Assembly (NCBI RefSeq): GCF_041260155.1
Contig: NC_091932.1
Span: 4,239,501 to 4,303,500, forward strand
DNA: 64,000 nt
Reading direction: 5' to 3'
DNA from: Ptychodera flava
Taxonomy: Eukaryota > Hemichordata > Enteropneusta > Ptychoderidae
A program made the translations under genes and the position numbers. Below, in pieces: positions 5,875 through 63,895 of the stretch. The notes under the pieces were generated by a model. That model saw only the letters and a list, made by a program, of their open reading frames with translations. It was not told the DNA's origin and ran no database searches. The first letter of the stretch is position 1. Each line of letters opens with the position of its first letter.

Positions 5875-7770
5875 CTGTGTGTTGAGCAGTGTTGAACGCT
5901 GTTGAACACACATTGAACACTGTTGAACACACGTTGATCTGGGTTTAATACGTACTGCATAGAATCATTCTCCAGCCTCTGTGTGTTGAGCAGTGTTGAG
6001 CAGTGTTGAACGCAGTTGAACGCTGTTGAACACACGTTGAACACTGTTGAACACACATTGATCTGGGTTACTGCATATATTCTCCAGCCTCTGTGTGTTG
6101 AGCAGTGTTGAACGCTGTTGAACACTGTTGAACACACGTTGATCTGGGTTTAATACGTACTGCATAGAATCATTCTCCAGCCTCTGTGTGTTGAGCAGTG
6201 TTGAGCAGTGTTGAACGCTGTTGAACGCTGTTGAACACACGTTGAACACTGTTGAACACACGTTGATCTGGGTTACTGCATATATTCTCCAGCCTCTGTG
6301 TGTTGAGCAGTGTTGAACGCTGTTGAACACACGTTGAACACTGTTGAACACACGTTGATCTGGGTTTAATATGTACTGCATAGAATCATTCTCCAGCCTC
6401 TGTGTGTTGAGCAGTGTTGAGCAGTGTTGAACGCTGTTGAACGCTGTTGAACACACGTTGAACACTGTTGAACACATGTTGATCTGGGTTACTGCATATA
6501 TTCTCCAGCCTCTGTGTGTTGAGCAGTGTTGAGCAGTGTTGAACGCTGTTGAACACACGTTGAACACTGTTGAACACATGTTGATCTGGGTTTAATACGT
6601 ACTGCATAGAATCATTCTCCAGCCTCTGTGTGTTGAGCAGTGTTGAGCAGTGTTGAACGCTGTTGAACGCTGTTGAACACACGTTGAACGCTGTTGAACA
6701 CATGTTGATCTGGGTTACTGCATATATTCTCCAGCCTCTGTGTGTTGAGCAGTGTTGAGCAGTGTTGAACGCTGTTGAACGCTGTTGAACACACGTTGAA
6801 CACTGTTGAACACAGGTTGATCTGGGTTACTGCATATATTCTCCAGCCTCTGTGTGTTGAGCAGTGTTGAGCAGTGTTGAACGCTGTTGAACGGTGTTGA
6901 ACACTGTTGAACGCTGTTGAACACACGTTGAACACTGTTGAACACACGTTGATCTGGGTTACTGCATATATTCTCCAGCCTCTGTGTGTTGAGCAGTGTT
7001 TAGCAGTGTTGAACGCTGTTGAACACACGTTGATCTGGGTTTAATACGTACTGCATAGAATCATTCTCCAGCCTCTGTGTGTTGAGCAGTGTTGAGCAGT
7101 GTTGAACGCTGTTGAACGCTGTTGAACACACGTTGAACACTGTTGAACACACATTGATCTGGGTTACTGCATATATTCTCCAGCCTCTGTGTGTTGAGCA
7201 GTGTTGAGCAGTGTTGAACGCAGTTGAACGGTGTTGAACGCGTTGAACACTGTTGAACACATGTTGATCTGGGTATATTCTCCAGCCTCTGTGTGTTGAG
7301 CAGTGTTGAGCAGTGTTGAACGCAGTTGAACGCTGTTGAACACACGTTGAACACTGTTGAAAACATGTTGATCTGGGTTACTGCATATATTCTCCAGCCT
7401 CTGTGTGTTGAGCAGTGTTGAGCAGTGTTGAACGCTGTTGAACACACGTTGAACACTGTTGAACACACGTTGATCTGGGTTTAATACGTACTGCATAGAA
7501 TCATTCTCCAGTCTCTGTGTGTTGAACGCTGTTGAACGTTGTTGAACAGCTGTCAAATCCATCTCCACTCACCCACAAATTACCTAGAGTATATTGTTGA
7601 ACTGTGTTGAACGCTGTTGAACGGTGTTGAACACTGTTGAACACTGTTGAACAATGTTGAACAACTTTCAACCTCATCTTTACTCATCCACAAATAACCT
7701 AGAGTACACTGTTGAACTGTCTTGAAAACTCTTGGACTCTGTTGAACTGTTTTGAACGCTGTTCAACAAC
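5875..7770. repeat. Higher-order minisatellite built on an 11-bp monomer
   Basis: The basic monomer is 11 bp (plus strand GTTGAACACTG and GTTGAACGCTG variants). Monomers are grouped into larger units of roughly 100-140 bp. Each larger unit starts with a non-monomer block containing TCTCCAGCCTCTGTGTGTTG, continues with GAGCAGTGTT and GAACGCTGTT monomers, and ends GTTGATCTGGGTT followed by either TACTGCATATA or a longer TAATACGTACTGCATAGAA variant. About a dozen larger units lie between 5875 and 7530, then degenerate monomers to 7770. Because 11 is not a multiple of 3, all minus frames stay open through the array. The resulting 100-200 residue open frames are a by-product of the repeat and are not annotated as genes. 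Confidence 0.9.
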
Positions 7771-8560
7771 TTTCAACCCCATCTTCATTCATCAACAAAT
7801 ATGTCAATAACCAAGTCTCTTGAAGCATTAAACAGAGGATTTATTTTTGAATAGACATACATAAATGGAGAATAATCTTCAATGGACAACTAGGAGTTAA
7901 AGGCCCAATAGCTTTATCTTTTAGCATTATTTTTTAGATTTTATTTCCAACTAAACCAAGTTCGTTGGAATGTACTCATTCAGGGGTGTTTATCTCTGTA
8001 CCAGAACTGTTGCCACTGGAGTACAAAGTCAGCAACACCATTCTTATGAAGCCAGATGAGCTCCAACCTCTTCAACATCCAATCACTCGAGACACAAGAA
8101 GATTCATTGTTGAAGACAGATTCCACTCGCACACAAATCCTCACAAGTCTCCTTTGTGTCGATATCATCACATTGATTTGTGCTCTAGGGCAATGCCATA
8201 AGAACATCAATGGCTGAATGTGGGAATAGCATTCGCAAAGCACAACGCTTAAGAGGATAATGTGCACAGAAAATTAGCACGCACATATTTTACAATTATC
8301 TCATGAATTTTTACCATAATGAAGCGATTGTCAAAAAACAGTTTCAGCTGTTAAGCCAAGATAGTTGTGAAGTGAAGAGGGGATTGTATCATAGGTTAGA
8401 AAAAATCACTATGTAATCGGTTTTGTAATGTCTGAAGATGAAACACATATTTTATCAGTCTATTAGAAATATAAAGTGCAAAGGAAGAAAGATAACTCTT
8501 GTTTTGTTAGTACAAAAATAAGCTGGTTTTCAGCTATATCATTTTGGAAATTAATATTAC
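7771..8560. other. Spacer between two minisatellites
   Basis: I see no gene. A short block at 7897-7935 matches the right end of the TTAA-flanked MITE at 61077-61527 and is listed separately. Confidence 0.4.
7897..7935 (-). mobile_element. Fragment of a TTAA-type MITE end
   Basis: Starting at TTAA (7897-7900), the sequence AGGCCCAATAGC and on to TTTTAGCATTATTTTT matches the reverse complement of the right end of the MITE at 61077-61527, with about one difference over 35 bases. I did not find the second end, so this is a truncated or solo end. Confidence 0.6.
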
Positions 8561-8569
8561 TGATAAAGA

Positions 8570-9283
8570 ACCCTGGTACCATTTCTGTAGTCCCTAATCT
8601 CATTGCATTGATATTCTGAGGGAACCCTGGTACCATTTCTGTAGTCCCTAAGCTCATGCATTGATATTCTGAGGGAACCCTGGTACCATTTCTGTAGTCC
8701 CTAATCTCATTGCATTGATATTCTGAGGGAACCCTGGTACCATTTCTGTAGTCCCTAAGCTCATTGCATTGATATTCTGAGGGAACCCTGGTACCATTTC
8801 TGTAGTCCCTAATCTCATTGCATTGATATTCTGAGGGAACCCTGGTACCATTTCTGTAGTCCCTAAGCTCATTGCATTGATTGTCTGGGGGAACCCTGGT
8901 ACCATTTCTGTAGTCCCTAATCTCATTGCATTGATATTCTGAGGGAACCCTGGTACCATGTCTGTAGTCCCTAATCTCATTGCATTGATATTCTGACTGA
9001 ACCCTGGTACCATTTCTGTAGTCCCTAATCTCATTGCATTGATATTCTGAGGGAACCTTGGTACCATTTTTGTAGTCCCTAATCTCATTGCATTGATATT
9101 CTGAGGGAACCCTGGTACCATTTCTGTAGTCCCTAATCTCATTGCATTGATATTCTGAGGGAACCCTGGTACCATTTTTGTAGTCCCTAATTTCATTGTA
9201 TTGATATTCTGAGGTAACCCCTTTACCATTTCTGTAGTCCCTAATTTCATTGCATTGATACTCTGAGGGAACCCTGGTACCAT
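8570..9283. repeat. 54-bp minisatellite, about 13 units
   Basis: The unit begins GGTACCATTTCTGTAGTCCC and recurs every 54 bp (for example 8575 and 8629). Since 54 is 18 codons, minus-strand frames stay open and read as an 18-residue repeat of the type GTRVPSEYQCNEIRDYRN, up to 292 codons (8463-9341). Differences between units change amino acids freely (R/K, I/L, C/Y), and one unit near 8655 has a one-base length change that shifts the frame. This looks like a non-coding minisatellite; a repetitive secreted protein is possible but unsupported, as I see no signal peptide or flanking gene structure. Confidence 0.9.
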
Positions 9284-9346: not shown

Positions 9347-9501
9347 CTGATTAAAATCAGATGTAGAGTACGGCGACGTCTTCTTATGCGTACGCGGTAT
9401 TCTCTCGCTGTCGCCTCTCACTACTAGTGAGAGGCGACAGCGAGAGAATACCGCGTACGCATAAGAAGACGTCGCCGTACTCTACATCTGATTTTAATCA
9501 G
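9347..9501. repeat. Perfect 155-bp palindrome
   Basis: Two 76-base arms are exact reverse complements around a 3-base centre (ACT, 9423-9425). The outer ends are CTGATTAAAATCAG, itself a small palindrome. The arms contain CpG-rich sequence unlike the AT-rich surroundings. No clear target duplication flanks it. It would extrude as a cruciform or fold as a long hairpin. Identical arms imply recent origin or continuing conversion. Confidence 0.97.
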
Positions 9502-23950: not shown

Positions 23951-24237
23951 CCAAGTGTGTACCCCAGAAAACTCTGTTTTCGAAACATAGCGCCAAAGTA
24001 TCGTAGTGTCACAGCAATCTCACCGCTCCAGTGCGGATAAACACAAGACATGTAAATTACGGGTACGTCTCGCCATGGCTGAGCAACATTTTACACAAAA
24101 CAGCCAAACATGATATACACTTATATTATACACAATATCACACACAAAACGCAAACAACCCAAATATGAAGTGGAGTTGCTTTCCCTTTACTAGCAAAGA
24201 CGAACAACAACTGATGAATAATTTTGTCTTTTTTGTC

Positions 24238-24241
24238 TTTC

Positions 24242-24304
<63 letters not shown>

Positions 24305-24306
24305 TT
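24238..24306. repeat. (TTTA)n microsatellite
   Basis: About 16 TTTA units lie between the Penelope-like fragment and the G-rich TIR element. Confidence 0.95.
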
Positions 24307-24524
24307 TCACATTACAGACATTTGTATCGTATAAAATAAAACAAGTATTGATTACAAGACATAGTGTGTGAGAATACTATTGTTTTACAGTAAAATTCGG
24401 AATTATGTTCCTGTTTTGTAAATAAATGGAATTATTGTTAAAAATGTCTAAAATATGAAAGGAATGTACAAGGTATATGGAAATAAAAACAAATTATTAA
24501 AATCGGACCAGTATTGGGCAGTAA

Positions 24525-26386: not shown

Positions 26387-26876
26387 TAAGTGGCCAAAAG
26401 CGTTGAAACTATAATACCGGGGCGGTCATTTTGGATTTATGCAAATTAGGCGGTTTTCAACTCCACAAATTTTGGAAGACTTTTGATATGTTTTGTGAAA
26501 AAAATGGTGAAAAAAATAAATTCTGTTGCAATTTGTGGTGGGTTACCCCCTTTTTTGGCCTAAAATGACTGGAGTACATACCCACTTCCTCCATACCCCC
26601 CCCCGAAATCAAATGGTTCTCCCCCAACGCGGACGCAGCGCAGCGTGCTCGATTTCAGGGCACGCCGTCCGAATGATTAATAACAGACATGGGGCTGCTG
26701 TGTCGACAAACACAAATCTATTTCTCATCGGAATAAAAATAGTCATAAGAAACTGGTTAGATTCTCGACTGATTGGGCTCCCCGTTTACAAGAATCAGTC
26801 AAAATTCAAGCTCAGTCAGAGCACAATCACCGACGATTTCGGGGCAGGACGATTCCACGATTTCTCATGTTCTATC
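26387..26876. other. Spacer left of the foldback cluster
   Basis: No gene. A 189-codon plus frame starts here (26526) and runs into the left arm of the foldback element; it is treated as a consequence of CpG-rich sequence with few stops. Confidence 0.4.
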
Positions 26877-27357
26877 CACAGTTACGAGTGGAGTGATACG
26901 TACCGGCCGCCGCGTACTTTGCTGCAGTACAGTAGCTCGAGGTTTTGCCTGGGTATTTGGGTCGGACGGCAAAACCAGAGCTACAGATCCAACCATCCAG
27001 AGAGAGTGCAGGTGCCGAACGTCTGGACGTTCGGCGCGCCTTGCAAAGTTATTCGGCGAATCCGGCGTTCTTCTCCTTACCGGTTTACCTTCTAATACTA
27101 TTTTGCACCTACCCGCTCAAGGATGTCTCGCTATTTATCCAAAGTACTGCCGTTCGGCAGGATTTTGTGTGCCGATCGCGGGTTACTCACTGAATGGGAC
27201 GCCATGTTTGAAAGGGATGACGTCACAGTCTCGCACATCCACGTTCCTATCCTATTAGCATAACAATGCACACATTTACGTTGTACGTGTACGCTGCAGC
27301 GCTGCGCTGGCTCTTTCAGTTTTCATAACTACTGACCGGCCGAACTCCGAAATGAAG
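26877..27357 (+). repeat. Left inverted arm of the 3.4-kb foldback element
   Basis: This is the reverse complement of 29760-30271 apart from a few substitutions and the absence of a ~30-bp inner palindrome. It is CpG-rich and open in several frames; the 161-codon and 82-codon frames here recur in the other arm because the DNA is duplicated, which is not evidence of coding. Confidence 0.93.
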
Positions 27358-29759
27358 ACGATTGATATTATATGATAATTTTTTATGAACAAAATTACAG
27401 AGAAATGTTATAATGTGCAAATACGTACGTGCATGTTATTCATGAAAGTGATTGTAAATGATTATTTGATCACGCTATTAAAGCCACAATACAAACGACA
27501 GCATCGACGAAACAGCAAAAGCAGACGGAAAACGAAAAGCAAACAAGGTTTCATAAAAGTGAGGGAAGCTGCCAAGAACAAGGTAAGCAACTTTTCAAAG
27601 GCAAAAAAAATAAAGTCATCTGTTGTTTCCTAAGTGGTGTTGTGTGTGATATTTCTTATCGATGTCCGAGGAGGCAAGAACGAAACCCTCCGACAACCTT
27701 TGTGTGCGATAAAGAAATCGAAATTGTCTCTAAGTGTACCCACCTTTGGTTTGAATACTTTCTAAAAAAATTAAATGGGATTTAAACACTGATGCTATCC
27801 TGAAGGAAGGGCGACAGCGATTTATTTTTAAGGAAACTGCTTTCCTTCATGTTTGATAGATAAATCTTATCCATTACAGTGAAAGCGTTGTTTCATTCTC
27901 GCTCATCTGGTGGCTTCATCTGACAATCAAAGACATATTAACTTTACAGAATTTTATCACTTACCTTAAAATTAGAATATCAAGAGAAGTCTGTCACTTT
28001 ATGATCAGCTAGTACTTAGGAAAAGCCCGAGCAATTGTTAACTGTAGTAATAATATTCTGTCATATTCATCATATTCTGTTCGGAGCGACCCTCCGGTCG
28101 GCGTTTTACACTCGGGAACCTGCTTGCAGGTTAAACCGGCGCAAGTTTTTGTTCATTTCCTCCATTACTTTACGGCTTTTAAATGATTTGTAAACTGTTT
28201 CATGTGTATGTTTTTGGTCACCGCTCTGTATCTATGTACTTTTTGTATATTTAATATTTTGATGTATTGTGTTTTATTCGCACTTTTTTATTGCCCATGT
28301 TTAGGATGAATAAAGCTGTACTGAGTTGAATTGAACTGAATAAAACCAAAACCCGACGGCCTTTTTCCAAGGCCACCACGTCATATTAAAAGCGAACTAC
28401 CGTTGAATAAACCCATTGTCCATCACCGCACACAAGACGACGTAAAGACCAACACAAACAGAAATTTCAACAGATGAAAAAAACTGAAGTTTCTCAAACG
28501 AAGAATGAAAGAAAACCTAAACAACGTATTAAACGACACGGAACACGTAAAAGCTAATGGAAGATTAAACACAAACAAGAAAAAACAAAAAACCTTCAAT
28601 ATAGGAAGAGGCATAGCAATTATGAATACGAAAGATTACATTCTAAGAAAATAATAGACCGCTGAAAATTCAAACTACACATGTATTAATGTAAACCACC
28701 GTCCCTCCATTGAGGGACGGTGTGTAAACCAACGCAGCGCGACTTAAGTACACGATGGATATGGGGACAAAATTATGAGGAGGTAACTTACAGTTTCCCC
28801 GACCCCGTAACGAAAATAATACGTTCATACTCTTGTATACAAATAACGGCATGATCGGACACTCTATTATCAAAACGTTCCCAAGTTACTTGTTGTTCCA
28901 GTCAAGCATATCAAATCCTGGTATTTTTTCTATATTTTTTTTTAATTCAACGGACAATACAGTATAAACAAATCTGTGAATGGAACGTGGGCTCACCAGC
29001 AGCCTCAACAGAAATAGCTGGCATATGATTCCGTGAAACGGAGAAAATTATGTTAAATCTCCACTACGGTCAAATATTCCGATGGAAACGTTTCAGACAC
29101 GACATTTCCATGGTTTACGCTGGAAAGGGCCATGTACCTTACTTCAAATTCACATTTGAACATTCTATCGACAAAATCTCGTACCTTGACTCAGTGGTCG
29201 GACATATGACCGAGAAAGAAGGCCCGACATTAATTTTCGGTGTATTTTTTAATGAATTTTGCTTCAGTGTATTTCATTTGTTTAACTTCGTTTTATTTAT
29301 ACGCGGAGTTTTATTTCCGAAAATTAAGTCCTCGCGTAACTTTCCATTGCACAAAATTAAATGCTTGTCCGCATTTTCCGCAAAAACTGCAACAGCGACC
29401 AGGCGAGCATGCATCAATAAAAATTGTTATAATTTCAGGCAGCAGTGTGCGATATCGCGTGTGCAGCTATATTTAGTAACAATGAAGTTACATTTATTTC
29501 CTTTCTATTGTGTACATAAAAGCAACTATGTATTAAAGAGATGCACTACCGAGCCGTCCGGTATTTATTTCGTTTAATTTTTACTTGAGTTTTGTTTAAT
29601 TTTTATTTGTTTAGCTTCGTTTTAATTATACACGTACAAAGATTTTTAATTCCCGAACATGAAGTCAATCTGGCGTAACTTTTTTACATAGCGCAGCAAA
29701 TATCCGATGGCGTTTTGTTGATATCGCTACAATAATGCTAATAGGATAGGAACGTGGAT

Positions 29760-30271
29760 CTTCATTTCGGAGTTCGGCCGGTCAGTAGTTATGAAAACTG
29801 AAAGAACCAGCGCAGCGCTGCAGCGTACACGTACAACGTAAATGTGTGCATTGTTATGCTAATAGGATAGGAACGTGGATGTGCGAGACTGTGACGTCAT
29901 CCCTTTCAAACATGGCGTCCCATTCAGTGAGTAACCCGCAATCGGCACACAAAATCCTGCCGAACGGCAGTACTTTGGATAAATAGCGAGACATCCTTGA
30001 GCGGGTAGGTGCAAAATAGTATTAGAAGGTAAACCGGTAAGGAGAAGAACGCCGGATTCGCCGAATAACTTTGCAAGGCGCGCCGAACGTCCAGACGTTC
30101 GGCACCTGCACTCTCTCTGGATGGTTGGATCTGTAGCGCTGGTTTTGCCGTCCGACCCAAATACCCAGGCAAAACCTCGAGCTACTGTACTGCAGCAAGG
30201 CGCCCACGTACTATGCATATAATATGCATAGTACGCGGCGGCCGGTACGTATCACTCCACTCGTAACTGTG
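29760..30271 (-). repeat. Right inverted arm of the 3.4-kb foldback element
   Basis: This partner of 26877-27357 includes the inner palindrome around 30208-30236 (GTACTATGCATATAATATGC). Just inside the arm, ATGCTAATAGGATAGGAACG followed by TGGAT at about 29735-29759 repeats sequence found again at 29857-29881. The arm therefore carries a 25-bp direct repeat at its inner edge. Confidence 0.93.
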
Positions 30272-30279
30272 GTTCTATC

Positions 30280-30365: not shown

Positions 30366-30375
30366 GTGGGGACCC

Positions 30376-30473
30376 TAGCTGCAGTACAGTAGCTCGAGGT
30401 TTTGCCTGGGTATTTGGGTCGGACGGCAAACCCAAATACCCAGGCAAAACCTCGAGCTACTGTACTGCAGCTA
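30376..30473. mobile_element. 98-bp hairpin element (module A palindrome) with 10-bp target duplication
   Basis: The outer end is TAGCTGCAGTACAGTAGCTC. The two halves are perfect reverse complements for 44 bases, around a 10-base loop (CGGACGGCAA). A perfect 10-bp direct repeat GTGGGGACCC flanks it (30366-30375 and 30474-30483). Nine- to eleven-base duplications are usual for Mutator-like transposases; the assignment is inference. The element is module A joined head to head, lacking the last ~10 bases of the module. Confidence 0.9.
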
Positions 30474-30483
30474 GTGGGGACCC

Positions 30484-30974
30484 CAGCACTTAAAGGCGGA
30501 GCCTCCCTTTAAAAGGACGTCAAGTTATGGTGGCGTTCATTGTGTAAGTGGACACCAAACAGGCAACACGCAGGCACACGCTCCAGAAAATGCAACTTTT
30601 TAGTTTTCCCCAGCCGAACAAACATAGACAAACTGCCAAGCGGTCAGCGCGAAGTTGCTGCCGATCGAACTCTGTGGTTATATTTAAAGTCTAACGCGAC
30701 TGGAAGACTTTTTTTTGGAAGTTCAAGTGTTGTGGTGGGGAATCAATGACTGTTTGCGATTTGAACCGACCGTCAATCAAAAGAGCTTGCATAAACTCTG
30801 CTTGCAGGATTAGCAAAATGTGACAAAAGGTTGAGATCAGTTTGTGTAATAATGTTATAGAAATCAAACATCGTACTGGCCAAGCGTTTGACTGGAGGAG
30901 AACTCCACTAATGCGAGAACCTGGATTGAAAAGTGCGGCTTTAACGTTCCCAATGGCTGGGGTCTGTGAATATT
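30484..30974. other. Unique DNA between foldback elements
   Basis: No recognisable gene. A 69-codon plus frame (30540-30749) has no family features. Confidence 0.35.
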
Positions 30975-30982
30975 GAACTGAC

Positions 30983-31882
30983 CACAGTCGTTTGGAGAGC
31001 TATTCAGCGCTGGGACTATTCGCCCCATAGACGAGAGTACAGAAGCGAGAAATACCCAAGTCTGGAAACAGAATGGCTATAAAAACCACGCCATGTCACA
31101 TTCCGTGTCCGATTTCACTGTGAAAATTAGCAAGTTCATCTATCATGCAACCGTCGATCGTTCCCTATCATTCTAAAATTTCATACCTGATACTTTATCT
31201 GATTCAAAAAACGCTCGTTTCGTGTGATTTTCGGCCGAATTCGACGGACACCTCGCCAGAACCTGGGGGTGAGCAACATTCCGGTCACCTCTTGGGTACC
31301 TCCACTTTACTGACGTTGGCGCCGCCTACCCATGAGGGATGACTGGAATGTTGCTCACGCTTATGTTTTGGCCAGGTGTCTCTCGAACTCGGCCGAAAAT
31401 CACAGGAATGAGCATTTTGTAAGCAGATGAAGTATCAGGTATGAATTTTCGTGTGATTTTCGGCCGAATTCAGAAGACACGTCGCCAAAACATAAGGCAT
31501 GAACAACCTTCAAGTCACCCCTCATAGGTACGCGGCGCTAACGTCAGTAAAGTGGAGGTGCCCAACGTCCACTGTGAGGTGACCGGAATGTTGCTCACCC
31601 CCAGGTTTTGGCGAGGTGTCCGTCGAATTCGGCCGAAATCACACGAAACGAGCGTTTTTGAATCAGATAAAGTATCAGGTATGAAATTTTAGAATGATAG
31701 GGAACGATCGACGGTTGCATGATAGATGAACTTGCTAATTTTCACAGTGAAATCGGACACGGAATGTGACATGGCGTGGTTTTTATAGCCATTCTGTTTC
31801 CAGACTTGGGGTATTTCTCGCTTCTGTACTCTCGTCTATGGGGCGAATAGTCCCAGCGCTGAATAGCTCTCCAAACGACTGT
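30983..31882. mobile_element. 900-bp foldback element, almost entirely inverted repeat, 8-bp target duplication
   Basis: The arms begin CACAGTCGTTTGGAGAGC and pair over several hundred bases around a centre near 31430. GAACTGAC flanks both ends (30975-30982 and 31883-31890), with one base of ambiguity at the right end. Within the arms, CGTGTGATTTTCGGCCGAAT recurs in direct and inverted orientation near 31225, 31450 and 31630, so the centre is built from smaller repeats. No coding frame is recognised. Confidence 0.87.
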
Positions 31883-31928
31883 GAACTGACTGGCGGACTG
31901 GCGCAGTCAGGGACTTCTGGGAGTCTGA

Positions 31929-31987
31929 TAGCTGCAGTACAGTAGCTCGAGGTTTTGCCTGGGTATTTGGGTCGGACGGCAAAACCA
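31929..31987 (+). repeat. Module A copy
   Basis: This is the full 59-bp module: TAGCTGCAGTACAGTAGCTC, then GAGGTTTTGCCTGGGTATTT and GGGTCGGACGGCAAAACCAG. It contains a 9-bp stem (GGTTTTGCC...GGCAAAACC). Immediately before it is GGAGTCTGA (31920-31928). Confidence 0.95.
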
Positions 31988-32442
31988 GATTTTTTCTACT
32001 ATTTTTATAGTATTTTTTACAAAGGCACAGACTTATTCTACCTGCAACTTAAAACTGATAGTGATTTTGTAGCTCATTCTTTACTATTTTTCATAGTTTT
32101 TGGTAGCCGGTAACAGACACTTCGTGTTCGTGTCGGCTACATGGACGATCTGCCAAACTTTACCATGCCGTAGACACGGCCGCCCGGAAGACGATCTTCG
32201 TACTGCTGTTGTTGAAAGCGTATATCGAAATTTCTAGTAATTTATTTGAACTTTCTGTCAGCGATTTTCATGAATATTTAATCAGGTCTACAGCTTCGCC
32301 GATACGGCCACACTGCTGTGTACTGAACGAAACACGCTTTGCATGCCGTAGACACGGAAGACGATTATGTTATGCCAAGGACGTCAAAACGTCTTATGCG
32401 AATGTAGGTTTCCTTATGCTTATGTTCACCACCATCCCGAAC

Positions 32443-32544
32443 CACGGTTGCGTGTGTAGTGATACATACCGGCCGCCGCGTAGTATGCATTATTCTATGC
32501 ATACTACGCGGCGGCCGGTATGTATCACTACACTCGCAACCGTG
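32443..32544. mobile_element. 102-bp hairpin element (module B) with 8-bp target duplication
   Basis: This near-perfect palindrome starts CACGGTTGCGTGTGTAGTGA and continues TACATACCGGCCGCCGCGTA to a centre near 32494. A perfect 8-bp direct repeat TCCCGAAC flanks it (32435-32442 and 32545-32552). Its inner sequence matches the outer 40 bp of the 3.4-kb element at 26877-30271, so it looks like a minimal family member made of two ends only. Confidence 0.92.
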
Positions 32545-32659
32545 TCCCGAACATATGAACCTGCCCCATTCTTCGATTGTTGTGCTTCCAAGTTCCATGC
32601 CCATCAGTGCGGGTCAGTATTAAATATCACTGATAGCCAAACAAGTACACTCAGACTCC

Positions 32660-32718
32660 TAGCTGCAGTACAGTAGCTCGAGGTTTTGCCTGGGTATTTG
32701 GGTCGGACGGCAAAACCA
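32660..32718 (+). repeat. Module A copy with reverse-complement flank
   Basis: This copy matches 31929-31987 essentially base for base. It is preceded by TCAGACTCC (32651-32659), the reverse complement of the GGAGTCTGA that precedes the other copy. Confidence 0.95.
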
Positions 32719-32999
32719 GAAAACCAGATCTGTAAAGTTTTCAAAGCGTGTTTCGTTCAGTACACTGTGGCCGTATAGGCGAAGCTGTAGACTGATTAAA
32801 TATTCAGGAAAATCGCTGACCTCTCGCATAAATTACTAGAAATTTCGATACGCTTTCAACAGCAGCAGTACGAAGATCGTCTTCCGTGTCTACGGCATGG
32901 TAAAGCTTTCTAAGTACGAAGATCGTCTTCTGTGTCTACGGTATGCATGGTAAAGCTTTCTCTAAAGCGTGTTTCGTTCAGTACACTGTGGCCATATGA

Positions 33000-34049: not shown

Positions 34050-34417
34050 TACAGCAAAAAACAGGATGGTTGGACAGTCTCATATACTTTACGTTTACGT
34101 TTTTGAATGTCCCACACAAGTTCTGTTGATAACATTGTAGATAAGAAGAACCGACTCATTGAGTAAAATACTAATCATGTAACACTCCACTCCACTGTTT
34201 ATCCTTGTATGTCTATAACAACAGATTGGCTTCAGTAGGTATACATTGTTTTATGGTTTGTTTAGCCCCGGGGTTTAGCCAGAGTGCTGTACTAATTAAC
34301 TTCAGTCTCTACACAGGCTACCCAGACAGAATGAAATAAGCTTGTCATTGCGTTTTTCTCACTGTTTTCTCTATCAGTTCCTCTCCTTTTCTTCATCACA
34401 GTCCCTCTATGGATATA

Positions 34418-34859
34418 GGGACTGTGTCTTCATGCTCTGACTGATCGGAGTAAATAAAATAAACGGTTATATAATCTAACCTAGCCTCTTATAGACCCTT
34501 TATTCATTTTACACCAATTACAAGGACGTTTATCTCTCATATACACATCTTGTAATTAATTAGTCAACACAACTAATTATGCTAATCCGTGGACTTATCA
34601 AGAGTTGGTCAACATTGCAAAGATACCCGTTTTAGTAACCATTCCTATCTTTCGCGATGTTGACCAACCCGTAAATCCCTGATAAGTCCACGGATTAGCA
34701 TGATTAGTTGTGTTGACTAATTAATTACAAGGTGTGTATATGAGAGATACACGTCCTTGTAATGTATGTAAAATGAATAAAGGGTTAAGAGGCTAGGTTA
34801 GATTATATAACCGTTTACTTTATTTACTCCGATCAGTCAGAGCATGAAGACACAGTCCC
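34418..34859. mobile_element. 442-bp foldback MITE nested in the large element, TA duplication
   Basis: The ends GGGACTGTGTCTTCATGCTC and CTGACTGATCGGAGTAAATA pair with the right end over about 200 bp per arm. TA lies at 34416-34417 and 34860-34861. Removing it restores the sequence of the opposite arm of the host element (TATGGATATACAGTGGATTT), which proves insertion after that element formed. Confidence 0.93.
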
Positions 34860-35050
34860 TACAGTGGATTTCAACTAGGCACCGCAACTCAGCGTATGAG
34901 ACGGACGCATTTCACGTACAAAACACACGGTAAGCTTGAGTATCACGACACATTTCAAAGCCACCGACACCTTGATTAATTACAGTAAACCAGCATGGGA
35001 CAGCCGCTCTGTCTAGACTGAGAGATACATCTGACCTACAATGTAACTGT

Positions 35051-36162: not shown

Positions 36163-37530
36163 CATGTACTATGAACAGAATGTATTGCCTTACCACCAGT
36201 CTACATGTATGTTCGCATAAATGCATCCCTATGCGTACGTGGCGAATTATGGCGATACTATATAGTATGGCTCCGAATCAACCTTTACACTCGTATCCAT
36301 TTTCTCATCCGGCATGTAATGACATTAACACTCAGCCTCCTTTGCCGACTGAACAACGTAACCATCGCGCCAGCCATCTCCACCTCCTCCATTTCAATAG
36401 TAATGGCGAGTAATTGTCCCAAATGTTCATTCCGTAAGGCAATGCAATATTTTGCTGTTCTTGTTTTTCTTTTAACTTTTGGTAGACTACAACATATCAG
36501 AAATTTGAGAAAGAAAAATTTGCTTCGAAATATATTTCAACTGCTTTCTCGTTTTGCGACCTTACATCAGAGTTACCTTGTTCAATTATCCGTTGATTTC
36601 GTATTCTAAACTTCTTTCCGTGAAGTAGTGCACAGTAGATTTTCTCGTGCGAAATACAGACAAAGTCGTCATCTGTAAGCGGCTTTGGTTTTTTCGTCGA
36701 CTAAAGATATCAGTTGACTTTATTTCACCGATTCCAAAGCGGAAGTCGAAGTACATGTTACTCCATTTACTCATGGTCACCACTATATTCACTTTATTCG
36801 TGTTCATAAAATAAATATTAAAAAAGTATGATAAGAGGTATGTATTTTGTTTATTCGTTTTGCAATGTGAGGTGTTTGTGCAGCAAAATATCTGGTATTT
36901 CGACTTGTCTTAGCAGCAACATATGCGATATTTCAATTCATTTTAGCTTGCAGCCGAAACCGTAAAAACAGTTACATTGTAGGTCAGATGTATCTCTCAG
37001 TCTAGACAGAGCGGCTGTCCCATGCTGGTTTACCGTAATTAATCAAGGTGTCGGTGGCTTTGAAATGTGTCGTGATACCCAAGCTTACCGTGTGTTTTGT
37101 ATGTGAAATGCGTCCGTCTCACACGCTGAGTTGCGGTGCCTAGTTGAAATCCACTGTATATCCATAGGGGACTGTGATGAAGAAAAGGAGAGGAACTGAT
37201 AGAGAAAACAGTGAGAAAAACTCAATAATGAGCTTATTAATACTGTCTGGGTAGCCTGTGGTCTCTACTGTCAACACACTCAGTAATTTAGCAATTCCCT
37301 TGTGTGTTCAGTCCAGACACTCAAATGAGTCGGTTCTTTTTATCTACAATGTTATCTTCAAAACTTTTGTGCCACGTACAAAAAAGTAAACGTAATGTAT
37401 ATGAGACTGTTCAACCATCCTGTTTTTTGCTGTAGTTGTCGAAAGTGACCGACTACTCCTGAGTCCTGGCCAACCTTCCCTACCTGTGCACTGTACTCGC
37501 TTTCTGTGTCCTTGAAAGTCCACGATCCTA

Positions 37531-45051: not shown

Positions 45052-45064
45052 AAAGTAAGTCACC

Positions 45065-46948
45065 ATGGCAACTGGCAGAGGTCTTGTAACCAGGGGAAGC
45101 ATTACTGTGCATCACTTACCAATGGCTAATATAGGTCATGTCAAAGCAGCTGCAGTAGAGGAATCAAATCTACAAATGTTCAAGGTCGTCGGCAATGGAC
45201 ATGACCTTGAATTCACCTCAGCGGCACATTCCCATGGATTGATGCAAGGCATGAATGACCTTCGGCAGGAAGGCCAGTTCACGGATATCACGCTTCATGT
45301 TAGGGATAGTGTATTCCATGGTCACCGTGCAGTTCTTGCATCCAGTAGTGGTTACTTCCATGCCATGTTTACCACGGATATGAAGGAAAGCAAATACGAA
45401 GAAATTACTTTGAATGATGTAGATCCGGCCATCATGCAAATTTTATTGGATTACATCTACACAGCAAAGATCATCATCACTGATGGCAATGTTCAAGATT
45501 TACTACAAGTAGCAAGTCTTTTCCAGGTGTTTGCAGTCCGTGATGCATGTGCAGCTTATCTACAACGACAGCTCCATCCATCCAATTGTCTTGGTTTCCA
45601 AAGATTTGCTGACAACCATGGATGCACTGAGCTGGCAGACACTGCTGCTGAGTTTTCACGTATCTATCTGGAAGAAGTCAGTCAAAATGAAGAGTACTTA
45701 ATGCTTACCAAAGATGCACTTCTAGAATTCATCAATACTGATGATATCTCCGTAAAAGAAGAAATTCTGTATGAATCAATCATGCGTTGGGTGACCCATG
45801 ACGTGGAAAGTCGAGCCAAGGAACTCCCTGATCTATTACCAAAGGTGAATTTTGCCAGGGTTGATACAAAGTATTTTGAAGAGAAAGTGATGTCGCATCC
45901 ACTGATAGAACAGCTGTCGTCATGGCAAGATGCAATCTCTATGAAAGGCGGTCCATCCAGAGGCAAACAGCTCATTCTGTTGTTGAGCGGCAAAACAGGT
46001 CGACCCAATCTACCAACACAGTTCAACCATGATGTCTTTAGTTTCAATCCAGAAACACAAGAGATGACAGTACTCTGTCGTGATCCAGAGCGCGAGGCCA
46101 ACAGCTTTTACGACAGCATTGCCACAGCATCCAAAGTAGGCGACGATGTTGTCTTTATCCGTGCCAATAATACATGGCTATTCAACATTAAGACATTGCA
46201 GTGGAAGAAAGTGGCACCATCGTTACGAGGAACCTACCGTTCAGAAACAAGCTCAGTTGAAGTTGGAGGGTATGTCTATGTCCTTGGCGGTCACTCTATT
46301 GAATTCAATAGAGAGGTAGCATTTGCTGAACGCTACAATCCACAACAAAATGTCTGGGAAGTAATCTCACCAATGATCCGTGCTGCAAGGGGAGCTGCAG
46401 TTGCATCCTGCAATGGTAAGATATTTGTGATGGGTGGTCACACTGAAGTAGGAAACATCGCTGACGCTCAGTGTTATGACCCGGCAACCAACACATGGAA
46501 GCTTTTGGCGCCAGTTCCCATAGCAACAAGTGGTGGCACAGCCATAACACTGCACAATCAAGTGTATTTGATAGGGGTCAAAAATCCAGCAACTTCCTAC
46601 GACAACCCTTTCCCAATCTACAACCACGTCTTCCGTTATGATGTTGCCACGGATACATGGCAACAGGTGGCCAGCATGTTGGATGGACATCGCAGATGCT
46701 CTGTGGTGATACACAACGGTAAAATCCACGTTCTTGGAGGAACACGACGTGACTTCATGAGTGGAAATATGCAGTGGGTGACGTCAGTGGAAGTGTATGA
46801 TCCAAATGAAGATAGCTGGACACCCAATGGAAGAGTATCCCAGCCGCTATTCTGTCATTGTGGAATGATGTTTACAGTTGAGGATGAAGAATCTGATGAA
46901 GATATCGATGAAGACCATGAAATCCAGGCCAAAAAGACAAAAGCATAA
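45065..46948 (+). CDS. BTB-BACK-Kelch (kelch-like family) protein, 627 residues
   Basis: Proteins of this family are usually substrate adaptors of Cullin-3 ubiquitin ligases: BTB dimerises and binds CUL3, BACK supports this, and the kelch propeller binds the substrate. The BTB domain (about residues 63-168) shows QFTDITLHV and HRAVLASSSGYFHAMF. BACK covers about 175-280. Kelch repeats cover about 305-600, with GGYVYVLGG (401-409) and YNPQQNVW, NGKIFVMGG (450-458) and YDPATNTW, YDVATDTW (525-532), and NGKIHVLGG (551-559) and YDPNEDSW. An unusual ~60-residue N-terminal extension precedes BTB, and the tail is acidic (606-619), ending KKTKA. The length is normal for the family. The start is the first ATG after an in-frame TAA nine bases upstream, in a good context (CACCATGG). 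The whole coding sequence is one exon. I cannot name an orthologue. It is convergent with TPR. Confidence 0.95.
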   Translation: MATGRGLVTRGSITVHHLPMANIGHVKAAAVEESNLQMFKVVGNGHDLEFTSAAHSHGLMQGMNDLRQEGQFTDITLHVRDSVFHGHRAVLASSSGYFHAMFTTDMKESKYEEITLNDVDPAIMQILLDYIYTAKIIITDGNVQDLLQVASLFQVFAVRDACAAYLQRQLHPSNCLGFQRFADNHGCTELADTAAEFSRIYLEEVSQNEEYLMLTKDALLEFINTDDISVKEEILYESIMRWVTHDVESRAKELPDLLPKVNFARVDTKYFEEKVMSHPLIEQLSSWQDAISMKGGPSRGKQLILLLSGKTGRPNLPTQFNHDVFSFNPETQEMTVLCRDPEREANSFYDSIATASKVGDDVVFIRANNTWLFNIKTLQWKKVAPSLRGTYRSETSSVEVGGYVYVLGGHSIEFNREVAFAERYNPQQNVWEVISPMIRAARGAAVASCNGKIFVMGGHTEVGNIADAQCYDPATNTWKLLAPVPIATSGGTAITLHNQVYLIGVKNPATSYDNPFPIYNHVFRYDVATDTWQQVASMLDGHRRCSVVIHNGKIHVLGGTRRDFMSGNMQWVTSVEVYDPNEDSWTPNGRVSQPLFCHCGMMFTVEDEESDEDIDEDHEIQAKKTKA

Positions 46949-54000: not shown

Positions 54001-57000
54001 CAATAATCTCTCTATTATCGGTTGCCTCTTGACTGTCCGTATCCAACTCAACAAACTGTACAGATGACTGAGTTGTAGGTGTTACGCTGACACTGTCACT
54101 GCTGGCTATACTCTCTATAACTGACCCAGGCACTGTGCTTTCAATAACAGACACTGGTACAGATTGACAACTCTCTTCTTGGGATTCAATACCAGTTTCA
54201 GGAGTCGGGAACTGCACCACTGGTGAGTGTGCCTGCAGCGGTGTTGTCGGAACACTACGTCCACTGCCTTCATCTTCACCCAGGATATCAATGTGTGTGT
54301 CATCCATACCAAGAGCTGTTGGCAAATCATAACAGATATTGAAATATAAAATACACACACATTTTTAACAAATCTGATGTTTTTTATGGTTCTCATCATT
54401 TGACATCTATTGTAGGAAGTACATCAACATGTTGATATATCACTTTCTATGACATATTCTTTCCATACACTATTTAATGAGAACCTTTAGTTGTTTTGCT
54501 GTGAAAGTTCATCTTGCAGGTTCTTTGATGTAACAAGACCAGCAATGTAGCTGTAGACGGCAAACTGCTCACCAATAATCAGAGCAATTTGTTTCTCAAC
54601 AAAGAGTGAATACAGATGTTTGAATAAAAACTGTCAGGAACTTGGTGATTCTGATCTTAAATTACCATCTGAGTTGACATCAAATAGGATTACAAAACTG
54701 ATTTTTAGATGTTTGATGAAAGCAATACTTTAACATTTTCTTCAATGCCCAGTATATGATAATGGGCCACAGGGTGAAAATTTCGAGTTATAATCAATTC
54801 TTTTTACAAAAGAAAGAAGTGTTGCAAATAAATATATAAGTGGAACACAAAAGTAAAGTTTTAGCAAGTAGTACAGACATTAAAAGTGCAAATCTGCTCA
54901 AATAAATTTAATGATAACTTGTTGAGCTCCACACCAATTACAAAAATGTCTTCTATTACTTCAATGTTACTGTGATCTGGAACAAATTTATGAATCAAAA
55001 TATCAGTCTTTAAATGTTTGTGAATTATGAGTTTCTCTAGTTGGTTTTACCTCCTTGTGTTGCTAGTTGTGCCAGCACCTGTCTGGGTCCTTCCTCTGGT
55101 GGGTTAAACTGGAAACGATTATGTTGAATTTGTGGAGAACTGCATCAAATAGATAAATAAAAACAGACTATTTTACAAAAACCTTTCAAGGAAAAATTGG
55201 AAGGGTACTGGTATGACACAATGAAACTCACTGTGACAAATGCGATACCAAGGTTCAAGGTCCCTATGTCAATGTAACACATAAGACTGTGTACTTTATT
55301 CATCCTACTCTGATTCTCCAACACAGTTTGACTTGATTGCTTTCTCATTTGTAATTAGAAGCAGATGTAGAGTAATACAGGAGATACAGGGTAAGGCCAA
55401 GAAAATAAAAAGTTTGTTTCTCATCCTAGACATATTGCAAAAATGATGCGGTGACGCGGGGTTTTTCTCTCAATTTTTTTATTCTTCAACCAACAAGAAC
55501 ACGCAAAAAACATGAAAACAACATAGGAATGCATGCAGAGATAAATGCACAGCAGTGTTGCTTTAGTATTTTTGTATAGCAACAGTTCTGCAGTTTGACT
55601 TTTAGTGCAGCAATGCACAGTTTTGATAGCGTGATATAACAGTGACATATGTGTACAGTTCTGAATGGAATGTTAGTGTCAGTTATTTTGTTTGCACTGT
55701 GTTATGCACTATCATCCCATATTTTTGCTTTTTTTAAATTTTATTTCCTCATGAGCAGAAAAACAAGTCATCGTTGATGACACAGTCCCCACTTGTTAAT
55801 GGGTACTTTGATTACAAGTCCTCAGAGAGGATAGAGTCCTCTTCTTTAATTAGGTCTGTGATAAAAATACTTTGATACAGATGGCACTCAATGGCCAAGA
55901 ATGAGTTCCATGGTGATGAAAACATAAAACCAATGTAGGCCACCATCCTAAAGTTCATAAAATGAGTCAACTAGGAATTAATCAACAGGGTGTTGCAAAA
56001 AATTTTTGCATACAATCCTAATACTTAATAGATTATCACTGGTACCATATTTCATGAAGTTTGATGCAGTATTTACAACAAACTATGAGATCAACATCTG
56101 TATCAAGTTTCATCAAATTTGACGTTGTATTAATTTGTGGCTATATCACTCTAATTAGGAAAGTTCATTACATATGCAATTACAAATTAATTAAAATGAC
56201 ACTGATAAATGTCTTTTTCAATGTTAAAGCAATGTGAGCTTAACATCTGTGCAAAGTTTCATGAAATTTGGTGCAGTATTTCTTGACATATCAGCCTACT
56301 TACAAAACTTCAATAATTGACATGTTACTGCTACATGACGTGAAACAAATTGACGAGCATATGTATGAAATAGGTCAATGTCCTTGTACCAACTTTGAAT
56401 GATACTGGTGGAAATATGTCTGAGTTATGGCTCTGTACATTAGAAAATTGTAACAAAATCACCGCCATGCAGCGATATTTGATCTTACTGTTTAAAAAAT
56501 CAACATGTACCGTATATGTATTACATAAGTCAATGTCCATGTACCAACTTTGAATAGGATCAGTTGAGACTTGCCAGAGTTATGGCTCTCGACATGAAAC
56601 AACCATAACAAAATTGCCACCATGTGGCCATATTTGACCACCTCGTGAAACCAATCGACATACATATGTATAAGTCAATGTCCTTGTACCAACTTTGAAT
56701 AAATTCGCTTGATACGTGTCTGAGTTATGGTTCCGGACATGAAAAAATCGGGGGAAAAATGGCCACACGGCGGCCATATTGGATTGTATCACAAAACAAA
56801 TCAATGTGCATATGTATGACATAGGTCAATGTCCTTGCACTAAGTTTGAATAAAATTGGTGAATAAAATCGTACGTGTCCAAAGGACGTGAACAAATTGT
56901 AACAAAATGGCTGCCATGCAGCCATGTTGGATCATATCATGAAACAAATTGACGTACATATGTATGACATAGGTTAATGTCATTGTACAAACTTTGAATA

Positions 57001-60000
57001 AAATCGGTTGAGATATGCCGGAGTATTGTGGCTCTGTACATGAAAAAATCGTAACAAAATGGCCACACGGCAGCCATATTGGATCATATCACAAAACAAA
57101 TTGACATGCATATCTATTACAGTGGTCAATATCCTTGTACCAACTTTGAAAAAAATCGGTTGAAACATGTCTGAGTTATGGCTCTGTACATGACAAAATC
57201 ATAATAAAATGGCTGCCTAGCGGCCATATTGGATCGTATCACAAAACAAATTGACGTGCATATGTATCACATAGGTCAATGTCCTTGTACCAACTTTGAA
57301 TAAAATCGGTTGAGATATGTTTGAGTTATGGCTCTGTACATGAAAAAATTGTAACAAAATGGCCACACGGCAGCCATATTGGATCGTATCACAAAACAAA
57401 TTGACATGCATATCTATTACAGTGGTCAATATCCTTGTACCAACTTTGAAAAAAATCGGTTGAAACATGTCTGACTTATGGCTCTGTACATGAAAAAATC
57501 GTAATAAAATGGCCGCCTGGCGGCCATATTGGATCGTATCACAAAACAAAGTGACGTGCATATCTATGACATTGGTCAATGTCCTTGTACCAACTTTGAA
57601 TAAATTCAGTTGAAACATGTCTGAGTTAGGCTTTGTACATGAAAAAATCGTAATAAAATGGCCGCCTGGCAGCCATATTGGATCGTATCACAAAACAAAT
57701 CGACATGCATATCTATGACATTGGTCAATGTCCTTGTACCAACTTTGAATAAAATCGGTTGAAACATGTCTGAGTTAGGGGAGGCGTCAAAAGATCGATG
57801 TTTGAAAAAAAAACTTAATTGCTTAAGTTTGGGGGTGGGGGGTTTTTGGCTAAATTAATTTCTGTGCAGTCAAAAACGATTTAACATCTTTTTGGCAAAT
57901 TTTATGATTTCAAGGCTGTTTTGTACGCTAAAACCGATCGAGTCACCTGTATTTTTGTTACTTTATAATGGTTTTCAATTTTTATTTAATTCAATGGTAC
58001 ATTGGTACGTCATTTGAAAGAATTAGTACAGGGTATGAGTTCGCAATGTTTTTCAATTTTAGGTCAGTTAAGTTAGAAGGGGGGGTGGGGGGGTCTGAGG
58101 CCAAACTTAAGCAATTAAGTTAGATTTATTATATTGAACTTTTGACGTTGCCCCTTATGGCTTTGTACATGAAAAAATCGTAATAAAATGGCCGCCTGGC
58201 GGCCATATTGGATCGTATCACAAAACAAATCGACGTGCATCTGTATGACATATGAAGTAATCCTTGAATGAAATCGCTCCTTGCATCTCAAAGATATCTG
58301 CGTGAACGGACGGACGCACACACGCACGCACGCACGGACATGACCAAACCTATAAGTCCCCCCGGACGGTGTCCGTGGGGACTAAAAAAGGTTGACATGG
58401 TGGGACTGAATTGATGCATGCGAGGGATGAGAAACAAACTTTTTATTTTTCTTGGACTAACTTTGAGTGATAGAACTCAGTGGAATGCTTCAAATAATGC
58501 AAATGTCGATAAGTCTACAAGAAATTTGGAAGCAGATAAGATTGAATAAAAATAATATAGGGTTATTCACAAAATACGGCCCTGTATGGACTCGGGCTCA
58601 GTGCCGGGACGAGCCTAAGGCGAGTCCAATACGTCACTCACTGAGCCCGAGTCCATACAGGGCCGTATTTTGTGTATAACCATATTATTATACACCTCCC
58701 TCCATTAATCGTTTGCATAAACTAATTCTATGGTAAATTGTGAGGGATGCGGCACGCGCGATATGAGTGGAACGTGCGCAATTGTTGAAATAAAATTGCT
58801 ACAAACCCCAAACAGGCGCGTCACGCGTCTCCCGTATTCGGGACTCCGCGTACTATACAAAATACAGAAAGTTATTGGACAGTCAAACTCCCATAGGTTA
58901 CGGCAGTAGGTGTATAATAATATATGATATGATATGATATGATATGATATATAAACTTACTTTAGTGCTTCTGCAAAACCATCAGTACGTTTTGGTACAA
59001 ACAAAGTTGGTGTGCTGGGAACAGTACAATCATCACCAACATCGTCAAAGGGAGCCCCTGACGTTTGACCCTACATGAGATGAAAAGGGAATATTCACCA
59101 GTTGATGGCCTGAATAGCTAATGCTTACATCTATGAATGGAACACTAATCTTGAATGTAACAATTTTGTCCTTAGACAAAATGATGAATTGCTTTCAGTA
59201 CACTGACCACTTAAAATACTTGCTGGTGGTTTGACTCAATGCTGTTTACTTAGTTTTAATATAATGATGGTTATCAACAAATGATATCCATTTCATATAA
59301 TGAACAGTTGCTCTAATATGTGTTTTTGCAAAGTACTCACTTCCATATATGTTATGGACTAGACTGCTTCCAAGACATCATTTTTAATTTTTAGTTAGAC
59401 ATACTTACCACAAATGAAAACTGGGGAAGTTGTCGTGTGAGTCTTTCTGTTCTGAGTGGTAGTCTCTGCAAAGGAAATGAAACTATTGGATCAGAATGTG
59501 TAAAACATTGAGAAAGGCTTCTAATCACAAGAACAGCTTGCTTTGAATGAGAAACTTAATTTCTAACATCCCTGGTATGTAGGGAATATGAGAAAACCAG
59601 TGTGTGATTGATTTGTTTTCACACTCTGTATTATTGTGAAAAATATACTTTTTTGTTGGTGCTCATTGGTCATTTTCTGTCCCAATGCTGAATGTGAGGC
59701 TATTATTTTCAGAAGGGAGACTGCAAACAGTAAAACTGGAATTCTAATACCAGCAGATGTCGTACTCCAAAGTGAATGTGTTTGATGATCTCAAACATGA
59801 TAATACGGAAAAGCACAATTAGACGTGGTAATTTTGACAGACGCATTTTACATGTAAAATAATTATTGAGTAATGCTGTGAAGACATATTTGGCTCCGCA
59901 TATGATGTCAATAAATGTTGACTTATTTGCTCAGCATTTGATATGGATGAATATAGACTTATATGAAAAGGAATGATTTATGTCAAAGAAAATCATTGAT

Positions 60001-63782: not shown

Positions 63783-63895
63783 GTTATTACGAAAATACCA
63801 CAAAGGATGCACGAGGACATTGGCGCAGCGTATCGCGTCGGGCGATGCGCGGCGCCAATGTCTGAGTGCATCCTTTGCGGTATTTTCGTAATAAC
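63783..63895. repeat. 113-bp hairpin related to 58561-58681
   Basis: GTTATTACGAAAATACCACA and AAGGATGCACGAGGACATTG pair with CAATGTCTGAGTGCATCCTT and TGCGGTATTTTCGTAATAAC around a CpG-rich loop. It is followed by TTATTATTATACATCT, as in the copy at 58561. The element probably continues past the window. Confidence 0.85.

Follow-up and report, generated by a model that had tools for sequence, protein, structure and literature searches.

Made1, a human MITE derived from Hsmar1, is described as a near-perfect palindrome of 80 bp, consisting of two 37-bp ends and a 6-bp core (PMC1784062). Root-knot nematodes have a Mutator/Foldback family, Tm1, whose composite inverted ends vary in length and enclose several types of content, including MITE-like forms; 45 of 53 elements carry duplications of 8-10 bp, mostly 9 bp (PMC3169594). 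Muta1 of Aedes aegypti has inverted ends of 145 bp, the tip of which is an imperfect palindrome, duplications of 8 or 9 bp, and many derivatives with truncated ends (PMC5225508). For Galileo, a Foldback-like member of the P superfamily, long inverted ends, a palindromic target motif and inversion-generating copies are reported, with duplications of 7 bp, or of 8 bp in three copies (PMC4168063).

Anatomy and insertion signature of a 98-bp palindrome

The palindrome studied here (C; 98 bp, unstranded) lies at 30376-30473 of the window, i.e. of the whole 64-kb stretch of DNA that was analysed, and its position in the initial annotation was exact to the base. Its description there as two copies of about 44 bases set head to head around a 10-base loop was confirmed: the left arm (30376-30419, + strand) and the right arm (30430-30473, - strand), both of them transposon ends, form a perfect 44-base inverted repeat around the loop CGGACGGCAA (30420-30429, + strand). 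The perfect 10-bp flanking duplication that had been reported was recovered as GTGGGGACCC at both edges (30366-30375 and 30474-30483, both + strand), though it is also readable as 8 bp. The arms can be extended by one base per side to 45 bp, yielding a 100-bp palindrome (30375-30474), and this CTAG...CTAG register is equally exact and gives an 8-bp duplication, TGGGGACC. The duplication is 8-10 bp long, depending on the register, and is not fixable at 10 bp by sequence alone. No further exact match to GTGGGGACCC was found on either strand of the 64-kb window. The possibility raised with the original description, that the two 10-mers are part of a longer local repeat, was checked: no longer exact repeat is present, only a match of 18 bases with 2 mismatches, which arises because the flanks GCTG/CAGC resemble the element tips GCTA/TAGC.

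With arms of at least 12 and loops of at most 20, 23 palindromes were called in the window, some of them overlapping calls within AT microsatellites, as against 0, 1, 0, 0 and 0 in five Markov-simulated sequences. The DNA folding z-score of C is -17.83, with 0 of 200 shuffles equally good. Abutting duplications expected by chance were counted in random placements, allowing 25 registers. With repeats excluded, 2 of 300,000 placements yielded a 10-bp duplication and 195 yielded one of 8 bp or longer; with tandem arrays included, the counts were 1,657 and 2,260 of 200,000, respectively. Large tandem arrays are located at 5880-7801 (units of ~10 and 112 bp), 8568-9283 (54 bp) and 56343-57777 (150 bp).

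In the manner of a MITE, C is short (98 bp), has inverted ends (44-bp perfect arms) and no coding capacity, is flanked by a target-site duplication, and has its ends in common with longer relatives of 495 bp and 3,280 bp. Very probably, C is a palindromic MITE: a non-autonomous DNA transposon of which only the two ends are left and which a transposase encoded elsewhere has moved. Long perfect palindromes are also a known class of assembly or amplification artefact, and a strand-switch chimera could have yielded a false palindrome at this position; such a switch, however, would make no direct duplication of the flanking DNA and would not share its starting TAG with D and E, the ends of the 495-bp relative, so that we attach practically no weight to this explanation. 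It is also quite improbable that C is a hairpin RNA gene (for a microRNA-like precursor), whether originally or by conversion once it had inserted. Its hairpin, calculated as DNA, is very stable, and mir-548 genes originated from Made1 palindromes (PMC1784062); however, 0 Rfam matches at gathering scores were obtained across the window, and the flanking duplication is accounted for by transposition, not by an RNA gene.

The shared 61-base end and its longer relatives

By sequence comparison, both arms of C derive from a 61-base unit (TAGCTGCAG...AAAACCAGA) found at A (26919, + strand), B (30198, - strand), D (31929-31989, + strand) and E (32660-32720, + strand). D and E are identical at 61 of 61 bases. 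When the arms of C are counted, the first 44 bases are identical in six occurrences except for the second base, which is T in A and B, and A in D, E and both arms of C. Single-stranded D, with one base added, folds into a pair of small hairpins (z-score -2.73; 3 of 200 shuffles equally good). The end begins abruptly amid differing flanks, and likeness between the flanks of its occurrences is limited to A and B, with 440 bp in common, and to the duplication around C; a reading of the unit as a piece of a longer duplicated segment was rejected on account of these differing flanks. On this one end are built three insertions, all within 6 kb: C, a 495-bp element bearing D and E, and a 3,280-bp element (N) bearing A and B. 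B and the left arm of C, inverted repeats 163 bases apart, were also considered as the ends of one element, and this pairing was rejected: their outer tips point towards one another, and a better partner exists for either of them.

D and E have the same orientation. The 9-mer GGAGTCTGA (31920-31928, + strand) adjoins D, and its reverse complement, which reads TCAGACTCC on the + strand (32651-32659; - strand as a copy of the duplication), adjoins E, each touching the first base of its unit. The reverse-complementary 9-mer beside E points to an inversion, and the arms of an inverted repeat, which would bound it (left arm 32185-32341, + strand; right arm 32742-32886, - strand), flank E on both sides. 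After the 400 bases at 32342-32741 had been flipped back by script, a 495-bp element was obtained whose inverted ends agree at 61/61 bases and whose 9-bp duplication is perfect. It is strongly indicated by this reconstruction that D and E are the left end and the other end of one 495-bp element, of which the right end would have been flipped by a local 400-bp inversion. Random pairs of 9-mers from the window were reverse-complementary in 12 of 1,000,000 draws, and, allowing for about 30 comparisons among six ends, the chance of the D/E match is roughly 0.0004, for a reading that was found post hoc.

N (26919-30198, 3,280 bp, unstranded) is the relative with long inverted ends, its left 440-bp terminal inverted repeat (26919-27358, + strand) beginning with A and its right one (29759-30198, - strand), with 3 mismatches to the left, beginning with B. 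Its probable duplication consists of CCGCGTACT on the left (26910-26918, + strand) and CCACGTACT on the right (30204-30212, + strand), which agree at 8 of 9 positions, with the five bases GGCGC (30199-30203) between the right end of N and CCACGTACT. There is no perfect adjoining duplication, and by eye the flanks are also readable as a 14-base duplication with three mismatches. In self-comparison, the interior of the D/E element has no match to N beyond the shared end. Flanking duplications, proposed in the initial annotation as a test of other copies, are exact for the D/E element after un-inverting (9 bp) and imperfect for N (8/9).

As to the further check proposed there, whether a longer copy encodes a MULE-type transposase, a longer copy exists in N, and no accepted Pfam match was found in the 19 of its 22 interior ORFs of at least 45 aa that were scanned, the best match below the cut-off being PF25761 (E 0.0032; 16.8 bits against 27). 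Among the ORFs of at least 95 aa in the window, 33 of 60 were scanned against Pfam and no transposase was found in them, a search in which short exons could escape detection. Elsewhere in the window, an unbroken BTB-BACK-Kelch reading frame of 629 aa, indicative of an animal genome, is located at 45059-46945, and a rhodopsin-type receptor domain (PF00001) was matched weakly at 24007-24336, with E 0.00086 and 19.3 bits (cut-off 30.5), possibly a receptor fragment. To judge by the look of the repeats, the animal might be an amphioxus; an amphioxus MITE, LanceletTn-2, is named in PMC5802833.

Bare palindromes and the origin of C

N is nested inside an unrelated palindrome, P3, which it splits into a left part (26877-26918, + strand) and a right part (30213-30271, + strand). 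With the flanks of N joined, P3 measures 101 bp, of which 100 are self-complementary, and it is bordered on both sides (26869-26876 and 30272-30279) by the 8-bp GTTCTATC, an exact duplication. Its relative P2 (32443-32544, unstranded) has a different exact 8-bp duplication, TCCCGAAC, at 32435-32442 and 32545-32552; the two are identical at 88 of 102 aligned columns over the full length of P2, with the centre at the same place. Both duplications sit at the edges of the maximal palindromes, and the sequence family of P2 and P3 differs from that of C. One palindrome with two different 8-bp duplications means that the same unit was inserted at two sites and, to judge from the sequence, the pair shows that ends-only palindromes of ~101 bp have been mobile in this genome. 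Together with the recurrence of the 61-base end at four places besides C, this lends substance to the original suggestion of a mobile unit made of ends only.

As for C itself, a longer family element of the D/E type may have lost its interior, probably via interrupted repair or end joining, in a deletion that would have left one 61-base end with 55 bases, joined to the 44 that remain of its counterpart. Compared with such an element, C retains 55 left-end and 44 right-end bases with one shared base (30430) at the junction, which is located at the right edge of the loop, where the left end ...GGCAAA meets the right end ACCC.... We infer an ordinary internal deletion of a D/E-type element, which explains this junction. 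Internal deletions of Ds reportedly arose via abortive gap repair, as put forward by Rubin and Levy in 1997. For defective copies of PePIF1, internal deletion is likewise proposed (PMC6327408). A transposase made elsewhere in the genome would then recognise the end, cut and paste whatever two ends enclose, and leave a duplication of 8-10 bp; because C has no coding room, we infer that it was mobilised in trans.

The order of events may also have been the reverse, with the longer element inserting first and making the duplication, and the interior being lost later, so that the 98-bp form never moved alone. This is a variant within the MITE explanation of C and is not exclusive of it. In keeping with such a collapse in situ, the window contains one bare copy only of C's family, and the junction resembles a simple deletion with one shared base; against it, the sister family P2/P3, with bare ~101-bp palindromes at two sites, indicates that small size is no bar to movement. 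We treat the collapse in situ as a credible but minority account. If the bare form itself moved, ~55 + 44 bases of end sequence suffice for insertion.

Self-comparison yielded seven self-palindromes of at least 100 bp in 64 kb (two inside P4 excluded), or eight with the split P3, a density that rests on one 64-kb window without a second-genome control. An insertion signature accompanies five of the eight, namely C (8-10 bp), P2 (8 bp), P3 (8 bp), P4 (7-9 bp) and 34416-34861 (TA). P4 (30983-31883) is a 901-bp self-palindrome that matches its own reverse complement at 828 of 916 aligned columns and is flanked by AACTGAC (7 bp) or TGAACTGAC (9 bp, 30974-30982 and 31882-31890). The 446-bp palindrome at 34416-34861 is inserted at TA within a dispersed repeat, of which an uninterrupted inverted relative at 36952-37434 presents the empty TA site. 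The 155-bp palindrome at 9347-9501, with 77-bp perfect arms, has TTAA 4 bases inside each edge and could be a TTAA-type insertion; no clear flanking duplication was found there, at 58552-58691 (140 bp) or at 63783-63895 (113 bp). It is conceivable, though we rather doubt it, that collapse to self-palindromic bare ends is a general and recurrent process across unrelated families, with palindromes being good transposition substrates. If true, a host-side fold-back or interrupted-repair mechanism, and not any one transposase, would make the MITEs of this genome.

The flanks of C are partly complementary to each other, at 8 of 9 positions in the 8-bp register (by eye) and at 7 of 9 in the 10-bp register; in the window, 77 of 63,974 positions show complementarity of at least 8/9 across a gap of 8 bases. 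A hint of palindromic targets is limited to C and to N inside P3, and a preference for such targets was set aside, as those of D/E, P2, P3 and P4 are not palindromic.

Transposase superfamily and comparison with known systems

The initial annotation had attributed C to a Mutator-like transposase on the basis of its duplication, and this attribution survives as a leaning, with duplications of 8-10 bp for C, 9 bp for the 495-bp relative and an imperfect 9 bp for N. Among the superfamilies considered, a Mutator/Foldback-like one is the most likely for the family of C, D/E and N, with a slight balance of probability in its favour, because it best fits the duplications (9 bp in D/E, 8-10 bp in C) and the long inverted ends of N with unmatched interiors; long inverted ends (440 bp in N) around unrelated interiors are a mark of Mutator-like elements (MULE/Foldback).

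Duplications of 8 bp are characteristic of hAT, P and Merlin, and the tip consensus of hAT is YARNG. An assignment to one of these 8-bp superfamilies, in which the 100-bp CTAG...CTAG form with TGGGGACC would be the true register of C, is appreciably less probable than the Mutator/Foldback-like one but deserves consideration. The maximal palindrome of C leaves exactly 8 bp, a reading that suits hAT, P or Merlin no less than Mutator, and the duplications that border P2 and P3 nearby are exactly 8 bp long; the 495-bp relative, however, combines TAG...CTA tips with an exact duplication of 9 bp, and the tip TAGCT, or CTAGC in the 100-bp register, does not fit the hAT consensus.

In the cluster, a single family is present side by side as long inverted ends that enclose contents, as a short element and as bare ends. 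A small inversion, readable because the duplication is split, lies there too, as does a further family of bare ends that was mobile as a unit, and the cluster allows tests of whether MITEs originate from end-only fusions. Relatives were sought in viral contigs, prokaryote genomes, phages and plasmids and none was found, a weakly informative result, as these collections are not animal genomes.

Of the systems outlined at the beginning, Galileo resembles the present family in its long inverted ends, its inversions and its palindromic target motif, and differs from it in the length of its duplications, which is 7 bp, or 8 bp for three copies, as compared with 9 and 8-10 bp. Muta1 has similar duplications of 8-9 bp, and the tip of the 61-base end is also self-folding; the tips are likened by folding alone, and no transposase was found among the window ORFs scanned. 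Tm1 is like the family of C, D/E and N in combining inverted ends and duplications of 8-10 bp with varied contents that include MITE-like forms, a likeness drawn on these features; it has a transposase-encoding copy, whereas none was found among the window ORFs scanned. Made1, as described, shares with C the arrangement of two transposon ends that meet head to head with a few bases between them. It is a mariner derivative with a TA target, in contrast to the 8-10 bp duplication of C, and the two are likened by architecture alone. The architecture of C is already known from Made1, and the family to which C belongs is itself new.
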